Origin: Chitinophagales bacterium
GTDB lineage: Bacteria; Bacteroidota; Bacteroidia; Chitinophagales; UBA10324
DNA: 49,594 bases
Reading direction: 5' to 3'
Assembly (NCBI GenBank): GCA_013816805.1
Contig: JACDDS010000021.1
Coordinates: 1-49,594, forward strand
In this document: positions 46,053 to 49,594 of the stretch, piece after piece
Layout: each line of letters opens with the position of its first letter
Position numbering within the stretch: the stretch's first letter is position 1
Program-made: the position numbers and the translations under genes
Notes under the pieces: model-generated
The model's input: only the letters and a program-made list of their open reading frames with translations
Databases searched by the model: none
Told to the model about the DNA's origin: nothing

Positions 46053-48044
46053 GTGGATAACAGGAGTACTGTCAACCGTCTTTCCGTTGGTCTTTTAATG
46101 ATAACCATTGGAATCGTTTTCGGGGATATTGGCACTTCTCCGCTCTATGTCATGTCCGCTATTATAGGCGATAAAACCTTGAGCAAAGAGCTTATTTATG
46201 GAGGTGTTTCCTGCGTGTTCTGGACGCTTACATTAATTACCTCGATAAAATATGTACTGCTGGTGCTTCGGGCCGATAATAAGGGAGAGGGTGGAATTTT
46301 TGCTTTGTATGCTTTAGTGCGAAAGCGGGCTAAGTGGCTGGTAATCCCTGCTATTATCGGTGGTGCTACACTATTAGCTGATGGTATTATTACCCCGGCT
46401 ATTTCTGTATCTTCTGCAGTGGAAGGATTGCGCGATATAAATGATAGCATTGAAACGGTGCCCATTGTATTGGTTTTAATTGCTATCCTGTTTATTTTTC
46501 AGCGTGCTGGTACTCGTATTGTTGGTGCTGCTTTCGGCCCTGTCATGTTTATATGGTTTCTCATTCTGGGATTATTTGGTTTTGAAAAAATTCTGGGTCA
46601 CCTTCAGATTTTAGGTGCGATTAATCCGGTATATGCCATAGACCTTGTGGCGGAATACCCTAATGGATACTGGTTACTGGGTTCGGTATTTCTTTGTACT
46701 ACGGGGGCTGAAGCTCTTTATTCAGATCTTGGTCATTGTGGAAAAATAAATATTCGCGTAAGCTGGGTCTTTGTTAAAATTTGTCTTCTGCTCAATTATT
46801 TCGGTCAGGCTGCCTGGCTGATGCAGTATCAGGGAATGCAACGTTCTGACCTTCCCGCTTCCAATCCATTTTATGGTATTATGCCTGATGGATTTCTTAT
46901 TTATGGAATCATCTTAGCCACATTTGCTACCATCATTGCCAGCCAGGCAATGATAACCGGGGCTTATACATTGATTAATGAAGCGATGCGGCTCAACTTT
47001 TGGCCTAAAGTACGGGTCCGGCATCCTACGGACCAGCGTGGTCAATTGTACGTGCCTTCTATCAACTGGATATTGTTGGTCGGATGTATTGCAGTCGTTT
47101 TATTTTTCCGGGAATCGAAGAATATGGAAGCTGCTTATGGCCTTGCAATAAATATTACCCTTTTGGTTACCACTATTCTTATATGTGCATATGTCTATAT
47201 CCGGAGAGGCTCGCTAACCATAGCTATAGCTATAGGTGTTGCTTATTTATTTATAGAAATTATATTCCTTATAGCTAATCTTATCAAATTTCCACACGGA
47301 GGATATATTGCAATCATTGCATCATTATCATTCTTTGTAGTCATGTTTGTGTGGTATAAAGGCAGAAGGATCAAGAATCGTTTTTTGGAATTTGGATCCA
47401 TGAAAGACTTGCTGCCGAAATTGGTAGAGCTCAGTGAAGACCAGAGTGTTCCCAAGTATGCATCTCATGTCATTTTTTTAACGAGCGCCAACTATCCTTC
47501 CCAGATAGAATCGAAAGTATTGTTTTCTATTTTCAACAAGCAGCCGAAGCGTGCCGATACGTACTGGTTTGTTCATGTTGATGTGATAGATGAGCCTTAT
47601 ACAATGGAATATGAGATGGAAGTGCTGGAACCGAATTTGGTGTTCCGCATAGATTTCAGGTTAGGATTCCGAATGGAGCCACGGATCAATTTGTTTCTGC
47701 GCAAGGTTATTGAAGACATGGTAGAAAAGGGTGAGGTAGATATAACGAGCCGGTATGAATCGCTGAATAAATACCACCTGCCGGGTGATTTCCGGTTTGT
47801 AGTAATGGAGAAATTTCTCTCCTATGAGAATGAGCTGCCCTTCTTTGAAAAGATCATAATGGATATTTATTTCTTTTTAAAAAGGATTTCACTGTCTGAA
47901 GGAACAGAATTTGGCCTGGATACCAGTGCAGTAACCATAGAAAAGATTCCACTTATACTCACCCGGCCCCGGGAACTAAAATTAACAAGGGTAGAGGAAA
48001 ATGGAGATATGTTAGAGAAAGCAGAAACCACAGTGGAACTATAA
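46053..48044 (+). CDS. kup: KUP-family potassium uptake transporter, copy 1
   Basis: A 663-residue K+:H+ symporter. The N-terminal half has about 12 transmembrane segments with IGIVFGDIGTSPLYVMS (hallmark GDIGTSPLY), RADNKGEGGIFALYAL, ADGIITPAISVSSAVEGL and TGAEALYSDLGHCG. The C-terminal ~220 residues (after WYKGRRIKNRFLEFG, about residue 434) form the cytosolic domain. The start is GTG in front of DNRSTVNRLSVG, which matches the start of the second copy. It takes up potassium for turgor and pH homeostasis. It is the first of a tandem pair; the next gene starts 138 bases later with the same orientation. Confidence 0.93.
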   Translation: MDNRSTVNRLSVGLLMITIGIVFGDIGTSPLYVMSAIIGDKTLSKELIYGGVSCVFWTLTLITSIKYVLLVLRADNKGEGGIFALYALVRKRAKWLVIPAIIGGATLLADGIITPAISVSSAVEGLRDINDSIETVPIVLVLIAILFIFQRAGTRIVGAAFGPVMFIWFLILGLFGFEKILGHLQILGAINPVYAIDLVAEYPNGYWLLGSVFLCTTGAEALYSDLGHCGKINIRVSWVFVKICLLLNYFGQAAWLMQYQGMQRSDLPASNPFYGIMPDGFLIYGIILATFATIIASQAMITGAYTLINEAMRLNFWPKVRVRHPTDQRGQLYVPSINWILLVGCIAVVLFFRESKNMEAAYGLAINITLLVTTILICAYVYIRRGSLTIAIAIGVAYLFIEIIFLIANLIKFPHGGYIAIIASLSFFVVMFVWYKGRRIKNRFLEFGSMKDLLPKLVELSEDQSVPKYASHVIFLTSANYPSQIESKVLFSIFNKQPKRADTYWFVHVDVIDEPYTMEYEMEVLEPNLVFRIDFRLGFRMEPRINLFLRKVIEDMVEKGEVDITSRYESLNKYHLPGDFRFVVMEKFLSYENELPFFEKIIMDIYFFLKRISLSEGTEFGLDTSAVTIEKIPLILTRPRELKLTRVEENGDMLEKAETTVEL

Positions 48045-48156
48045 TGATATTGTTCATAGCCAGAATCTTCAGCATGTAAAAATAAGTGTCGATAAAATTA
48101 TAGTAAAGCTTAAATTGCCTTGTTAAAAAACCAACAATATCGATATCGCAATCTCT

Positions 48157-48164
48157 TATCTTCG
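48157..48164 (+). promoter_or_regulatory. -7-like box of the second kup copy
   Basis: TATCTTCG is one base off TAnnTTTG and ends exactly 18 bases before the GTG start, the same distance as in front of kup copy 1. It may give the second copy its own promoter. Confidence 0.35.
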
Positions 48165-48182
48165 TGAACGTAAATTTTTATT

Positions 48183-49594
48183 GTGGATAGCAGGAGTACT
48201 GTCAATCGCCTTTCGGCGGGTTTATTATTAATTACAATTGGTATTGTCTACGGCGATATAGGGACGTCTCCCCTATATGTGATGTCTGCCATTGTAGGCA
48301 ACAGGGTGATAAGCAAAGAGCTTATTTATGGAGGGGTTTCCTGCGTATTCTGGACACTTACACTTATTATTTCTATTAAATATGTATTTCTGGTTCTTCG
48401 AGCCGATAATAAAGGGGAAGGAGGAGTCTTTGCCTTGTATGCTTTAGTGCGAAAACGTGCCAGGTGGCTGGTTATACCTGCTATGATCGGTGGATCTACA
48501 CTGCTTGCTGATGGAATGATTACTCCTGCTATTTCTGTTTCCTCTGCTGTAGAGGGACTAAGAAATATTAATGAGGAAATTCAAACGGTTCCAATTGTTA
48601 TTATTATAATAACCTCCTTATTTCTCTTCCAGCGGGCAGGAACCCGAATTGTGGGAAGCTTATTTGGGCCGTTTATGGTTATCTGGTTCCTGATGCTTGC
48701 TGTAATGGGTGTGAGCAAAATTGTTCATCATATTGAAATTTTTAAGGCTATTAACCCGATGTATGCCATTCAGTTACTCACTAATTATAAGGAGGGGTAC
48801 TGGTTGCTCGGTGCCGTATTTTTATGTTCTACCGGTGCCGATGCTCTATATTCTGATTTGGGGCATTGCGGAAAAGTTAATATTCGTGTAAGCTGGATTT
48901 TTGTAAAAGTTTGCCTCCTGCTAAACTATTTCGGGCAGGCAGCCTGGCTGATGCAATACGAAGAGCTGAAAAGAACAGATATTCCGGTAGCCAACCCTTT
49001 CTATGGCATTGTACCGGATTGGTTCCTGCTACCTTCCATTGTTATTGCAACGTTTGCCGCCATTATTGCAAGCCAGGCCATGATTACAGGAGCTTTTACA
49101 TTAATAAATGAAGCTATGCGACTTAATCTTTGGCCAAAGGTGCGAGTACGGTATCCCACAATTCAACGGGGCCAATTATATGTTCCCTCCATTAACTGGA
49201 TACTATTAACAGGCTGCATTGGGGTTGTGCTGTATTTTCAGGAATCTAAATATATGGAAGCTGCTTATGGTTTAGCAATTAATGTTACCATGATTGTTAC
49301 TACGATATTAATTAGCACGTATGCTTATGTCAGACGCGGATCATTCACGATTATGCTCACCATTGGTTTCACATTTTTATTTATTGAGTTTTGTTTTCTG
49401 GTTGCTAACCTGATCAAGTTTCCTCTTGGAGGGTATATTGCTTTTCTCGCAGCATTTACCTTTTTATCTATAATGTACGCATGGTATAAAGGCAGAAGGA
49501 TCAAGAATCGTTTTTTGGAATTTGGATCCATGAAAGACTTGCTGCCGAAATTGGTAGAGCTCAGTGAAGACCAGAGTGTTCCCAAGTATGCATC
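48183..49594 (+). CDS. kup: KUP-family potassium uptake transporter, copy 2 (3' end outside window)
   Basis: The frame starts at GTG 48183 and stays open to the end of the window (470 codons). The product begins MDSRSTVNRLSAGLLLITIG and contains YGDIGTSPLYVMS and GEGGVFALYALVRKRARW, matching copy 1 codon for codon without gaps up to codon 433 but with many substitutions. From codon 434 (49482) to the end, 113 bases are identical to copy 1 (47352-47464). The first 433 codons are therefore a true diverged paralogue, while the last 38 may be an assembly join or recent gene conversion. The cytosolic domain is mostly missing because of the edge. Confidence 0.9.
   Translation, partial: MDSRSTVNRLSAGLLLITIGIVYGDIGTSPLYVMSAIVGNRVISKELIYGGVSCVFWTLTLIISIKYVFLVLRADNKGEGGVFALYALVRKRARWLVIPAMIGGSTLLADGMITPAISVSSAVEGLRNINEEIQTVPIVIIIITSLFLFQRAGTRIVGSLFGPFMVIWFLMLAVMGVSKIVHHIEIFKAINPMYAIQLLTNYKEGYWLLGAVFLCSTGADALYSDLGHCGKVNIRVSWIFVKVCLLLNYFGQAAWLMQYEELKRTDIPVANPFYGIVPDWFLLPSIVIATFAAIIASQAMITGAFTLINEAMRLNLWPKVRVRYPTIQRGQLYVPSINWILLTGCIGVVLYFQESKYMEAAYGLAINVTMIVTTILISTYAYVRRGSFTIMLTIGFTFLFIEFCFLVANLIKFPLGGYIAFLAAFTFLSIMYAWYKGRRIKNRFLEFGSMKDLLPKLVELSEDQSVPKYA

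Follow-up and report, generated by a model that had tools for sequence, protein, structure and literature searches.

Gene conversion and the concerted evolution of bacterial paralogues have been described for tufA and tufB (PMC6053082, main text), and adjacent kup duplicates have been reported from Lactococcus, in which kupA and kupB share over 70% amino-acid identity (PMC6108528, main text). For KimA, a transporter of the KUP family, PMC10284832 describes a cytosolic domain that makes a swapped dimer and binds c-di-AMP. The words 'potassium' and 'transporter' are absent from the main text of PMC6053082, as is the term 'gene conversion' from the main text on Lactococcus kupA-kupB (PMC6108528), and the titles and abstract openings of the open-licence papers searched yielded no report of gene conversion of bacterial kup.

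The tandem kup pair described here is a new example of known processes. Like tufA and tufB as presented in the main text of PMC6053082, its members are paralogues of the same genome that appear to have been made alike at silent and replacement sites by recombination; unlike tufA and tufB, they appear homogenised in the C-terminal part only, and lie in tandem with membrane parts that are still 75% identical. The likeness to Lactococcus kupA-kupB, which follows the published description (PMC6108528, main text), is that of neighbouring kup duplicates.

A tandem kup pair at the end of a contig

The window, i.e. the whole stretch of 49594 bases analysed here, is an entire contig (C21), one of the 31 in a 3.57-Mb assembly, and the window end is the contig end. 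Its last two genes, both on the forward strand, are the tandem K+ transporter genes kup1 and kup2. The first of the pair, kup1 (46053-48044), is an open reading frame with a GTG start at 46053 encoding 663 amino acids, in which PF02705 K_trans spans residues 15-446 (517.9 bits) and PF22776 K_trans_C residues 472-627 (77.1 bits), both above their cut-offs. Following a forward-strand spacer of 138 bp (48045-48182), kup2 starts with GTG at 48183 and runs for 470 codons to 49594, where it is truncated by the contig end. Its PF02705 match again covers residues 15-446 (520 bits; curated Pfam cut-off 24.8), and the gene is cut before K_trans_C, of which a second contig, C1, would hold only the last part. 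Both gene starts lie within a direct repeat, 79% identical over 300 nt, that begins 28 bases upstream of each start codon.

A profile search of the genome returned two PF02705 K_trans matches only, kup1 and kup2. The cut-off of the NCBIfam equivalog model for kup, TIGR00794 (539.6), was not reached by either gene (403.5 and 400.3 bits, kup2 being partial), and the name kup is therefore used at the level of the KUP/HAK/KT family, with no equivalog claim. In a single-sequence search against solved structures, all seven distinct matches at E <= 0.001 corresponded to plant Potassium transporter 5, the best stretch being 96-444; KimA was absent from the matches at this threshold.

Exact identity opens at codon 434

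The preliminary description of this DNA had noted an exact 113-bp identity between the two copies from codon 434 onwards, which was borne out: 49482-49594 equals 47352-47464 at 113 of 113 bases, with frame and alignment unshifted. In kup1 and kup2 alike, the run opens with the first base of codon 434, and the copies differ one base before. Divergence just ahead of the junction, as also described, was recovered, the ungapped alignment upstream of the edge (offset 2130) matching at 916 of 1299 nt (70.5%); at this per-base identity, the chance of 113 consecutive matches is about 7e-18. A 29-base junction probe allowing up to 3 mismatches detected two sites only in the window, and 0 of 100 shuffles gave any.

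The membrane parts of the two proteins are 75.1% identical in amino acids. At third codon positions, 182 of 433 match upstream of the edge (42%), as against all 37 in the sequenced tail codons, and the earlier rejection of a uniform duplication therefore holds. A comparable step was absent from 13 comparison pairs (11 between genomes and 2 dispersed pairs within genomes), among which third-position identity of the tail minus that of the membrane part ranged from -6 to +10 points, compared with 58 points, over 37 codons, in the window pair.

The block continues on a second contig

In a protein search of the genome, one more piece of kup, the third, was located where C1 begins. Bases 1-107 of C1 equal 47901-48007 exactly, divergence sets in from C1 base 108, and the frame continues to its own stop at C1:153. 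With 47352-48007 as a DNA query (E <= 0.001), three sites only were found in the genome, namely the full copy in kup1, the 113 bases at the end of C21 and the 107 at the start of C1. Because C1 opens with 107 bases matching 47901-48007, the block spans at least 47352-48007 in kup1 (656 bp, codons 434 to about 652), whereas on the kup2 side C21 holds only its start, the 113 bp of 49482-49594 up to the contig end. The 113 bp thus stand as an exact match and fall as the full length of the block, since C1 extends it to 48007 on the kup1 side. With respect to domains, the block covers the end of the K_trans match (its final 13 residues, 15-446 being the full match), the whole of K_trans_C (472-627) and the linker between them.

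Repeat content, frame and synteny point to a putative join between C21 and C1. If C21 leads through the block into C1, the length arithmetic gives a gap of 436 bp and a kup2 of 2001 nt, in whole codons ending in a stop; the remainder of kup2 is predicted to end on C1 at base 153, and the 436 bp that would lie inside the assembly gap probably match kup1. A distinct in-frame 3' end is the kind of outcome that the preliminary description had counted in favour of gene conversion; here it is seen between contigs, across the putative join rather than within a long read. From the right edge of the block, about 12 codons remain to the stop of kup1 and 15 to that of kup2. Past 48007 and C1:107 the two 3' ends seem unrelated rather than diverged, which makes the right edge weak evidence for a tract; it may mark the end of homology between the copies instead of the end of a tract.

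Downstream of the kup2 end, C1 has a pterin-4a-type dehydratase gene and an IPExxxVDY gene on the opposite strand (NCBIfam names), followed by ORFs that we take to be acpP, fabF and rnc. Among 16 kup loci from the same family, kup adjoins the dehydratase and IPExxxVDY genes in five, in the order in which C1 continues, and four of these five also have acpP-, fabF- and rnc-like ORFs further along the same stretch; the other 11 of the 16, of which two sit on contigs 4.5 and 6.3 kb long, lack this order. In three relatives examined closely, a 2.1-kb opposite-strand ORF, presumably gliding-type, lies between kup and the dehydratase, a position occupied by few bases in the window genome.

Why the contig stops

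Both ends of all 31 contigs were compared, scoring exact recurrence of terminal sequence in other ends or in the window interior; 60 ends were readable and 2 masked, and matches between an end and the interior of another contig fall outside this comparison. At least 80 terminal bases were shared in 49 of the 60 readable ends, exactly 127 in 26 and more than 127 in none, with 11 ends below 80. The 113- and 107-base ends fit the range of the other shorter shared ends (85 and 103-126). The 127-bp ceiling probably reflects assembly by a de Bruijn graph in which k is about 127, and the break at kup2 resembles those induced by repeats in short-read assemblies of this type, in which ends share up to k bases, here with a ceiling of 127 bp.

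Being longer than k = 127, the block would appear in the assembly graph as a repeat node, which the assembler would have traversed once, for kup1, and inside which it would have halted for kup2, leaving the 113 and 107 bases. Both the place where the contig ends and the value of 113 bp are properties of the assembly, not of biology. Graph overlap and gene conversion had been offered at the outset as alternatives; a graph break does set the contig end and the 113 bp, but the identity itself is no artefact, as C1 carries the far end of the block in frame into a distinct 3' end. Because 48008-49481 (B) is flanked by the block (R) on both sides, linear routes through the graph take the form A-R-(B-R)n-C, with n >= 1. 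The graph is compatible with one or more copies of the unit and does not fix n, which makes kup copy number at this locus a measurable question; formally, B and R could also lie on a circle of their own.

At the opposite end of the window, positions 1-146 comprise stretches of 117-136 bp, 95-100% identical, that are common to the ends of five other contigs (C6, C20, C22, C26 and C29). With its left end repetitive too, C21 seems to be broken by repeats on both sides.

Recent gene conversion as the most likely origin of the shared block

Three features together point to recombination: silent sites that are identical, a left edge defined to the base, and a protein difference of 25% elsewhere. We consider that the shared block is best explained by recent gene conversion between the tandem kup paralogues, with an ordinary graph break on a really homogenised stretch, and assign this reading a probability of roughly 0.8. 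Under such a scenario, the paralogues would have been made by duplication, probably within the lineage, and would later have diverged, after which recombination would recently have copied about 656 bp, codon 434 to 652, from one gene onto the other. We infer gene conversion in the broad sense, i.e. a non-reciprocal homologous recombination, or an unequal exchange giving the same product. The outcome would be two transporters with different membrane cores and an identical C-terminal domain. Copying may have run from kup1 to kup2 or the reverse, and a few differences between them could have been smoothed by the assembler.

The age of the duplication bears on how this scenario compares with its main rival. 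In a tree of 16 sequences, the membrane parts of kup1 and kup2 clustered together, the support being moderate (86/93, short of the strict threshold; 82% of 200 bootstrap trees) and the two branches 0.30 and 0.20 changes per site long. This grouping and these branch lengths suggest that the duplication probably arose in this lineage and is not young. The duplication would then be older than the homogenised stretch, although this would not be decisive if one membrane part came from outside. The main rival invokes precisely such an outside source: a recent tandem duplication, which would begin 28 bases ahead of the start codon and end at the right edge of the block, would have been followed by replacement of one membrane part with the diverged allele of a relative, the tail being the part left unreplaced. 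The same mosaic would be produced, the right edge would be the duplication junction, in keeping with the unrelated 3' ends, and membrane grouping at only 86/93 on long branches would allow for an unsampled close relative as donor. Against this, the membrane parts are alike in GC and GC3 (0.413/0.365 and 0.409/0.374), they group with each other and not with any sampled genus, and an outside donor is required on top of the duplication; we therefore regard this history as unlikely.

An assembly artefact, in which the last 113 bases were wrongly joined to kup2 at a chimeric contig end and the true kup2 tail is different, draws on the observation that ends in this assembly routinely bear shared sequence of up to 127 bp. 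Such ends are, however, expected to reflect real k-mers shared at graph branches. The match also begins at a homologous codon with frame and alignment unshifted, C1 independently has the other end of the block on a different 3' end, in frame, and the genome contains no third gene as a source. On these grounds a chimeric end was rejected as very improbable. Strong selection on the C-terminal protein sequence, which might keep the tails alike without recombination and would agree with a C-domain more conserved than the membrane part in several close orthologs (83.5% versus 75.8% of amino acids between kup1 and G003a), was rejected as having a negligible probability, being contradicted by third positions identical in 37 of 37 codons (42% in the membrane part) and by an edge abrupt to the base.

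Tandem kup pairs elsewhere in Bacteroidia

Tandem kup pairs were sought in two partly overlapping genome samples, 393 at order level and 395 at class level, from which 90 and 55 multi-copy genomes, chosen by eye, were re-examined. These genomes yielded 12 other kup pairs in which both genes lie on one strand and start 2.0-2.9 kb from each other, and 3 further tandem pairs were identified among the best 80 of 584 loci of a named collection, including L148, with starts 3.9 kb apart. The tandem set excludes opposite-strand pairs and those whose same-strand genes are separated by about 10 kb (G494 and G703). Silent-codon identity of the tail minus that of the membrane part was then evaluated against cross-genome pairs with a comparable identity in the membrane part (10,711 in total; sequences recur among these controls, which are not independent). 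The window pair stands outside the test, with the tail of kup2 falling in the assembly gap.

A silent-site excess in K_trans_C was found in 3 of the 15 pairs, each at or beyond the top 2% of controls, values as large occurring in 0/1300 controls for G377, 0/192 for Mucilaginibacter terrigena L126 and 1/52 for G314. Two further pairs stood out on amino acids, not on silent sites: L148, extreme on the former (0/1447; silent sites 149/1447), and G666 (6/2723; silent sites 692/2723). The remaining 10 were unremarkable on silent sites, with G744 running the opposite way. A rule that tandem kup pairs homogenise their C-domain was rejected, given that 12 of the 15 pairs lack a strong silent-site excess. 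The excess in a minority of pairs would represent decayed traces of the same homogenisation, of which the window pair would be the freshest. A recurrent pattern in Bacteroidia, in which domain-bounded conversion maintains one C-terminal domain for both members of a tandem kup pair while their membrane cores specialise, seems to us doubtful.

L148, a Chitinophagaceae MAG with two kup genes, also shows identity at the other end of the gene: its first 30 codons are 93% identical in both protein and third positions, compared with about 47% at third positions in the membrane part. This 5' identity is a second homogenised block.

GC3 was also surveyed across 147 kup genes. In kup1 it is 0.476 in the C-terminal domain (47352-48007) and 0.362 in the membrane part, a difference that ranks 3 of 147. 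Raised GC3 in the C-domain of kup1 would fit GC-biased gene conversion, with a mixed picture among the other homogenised pairs, the two genes of which rank 10 and 14 in L126, 28 and 34 in G377, 12 and 115 in L148, and 68 and 98 in G314.

As parallels to the truncated kup2, we examined kup genes broken near contig ends in G312, G462, G436, G090, G104, G229, G337 and G407. Two-copy identity like that of the window was absent from all broken kup genes compared; for G229, G337 and G407, the fragments were located only. In G312, one kup gene is divided between two contigs (L201 and L229) that overlap by exactly 127 bp, with no second gene copy there; unlike this one locus divided over contigs, the window genome has two loci sharing the sequence. 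In G462 (L217 and L233) and G436 (L219), kup is cut off by the end of a contig, no more than about ten codons away from the membrane/tail junction. The G462 tail lies at the edge of another contig, where an overlap was sought and none found, and no cause was identified for the G462 and G436 breaks.

Implications and other repeats in the genome

If kup C-domains dimerise as described for KimA (PMC10284832), a shared domain would permit mixed dimers under one regulator, and domain-bounded conversion, should it recur in kup pairs, would offer a route to ask whether KUP transporters form mixed dimers via their cytoplasmic domains. If real, direct repeats of 656 bp at a distance of 2130 bp would also give the cell a means of deleting or amplifying kup2. 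For genome annotation, contigs are broken at tandem paralogues that were homogenised recently, one of the two copies then being listed as an incomplete gene; where a gene is truncated and its match to another abruptly becomes perfect at the contig end, this can signal real biology masked by short-read assembly.

Repeats of another kind were also observed at contig ends of the window's genome. CRISPR-like arrays occur at the starts of C10 (L044) and C28 (L061), each comprising six repeats at 64-67-bp spacing, and the two arrays share the same unit of roughly 30 bp in opposite orientation.
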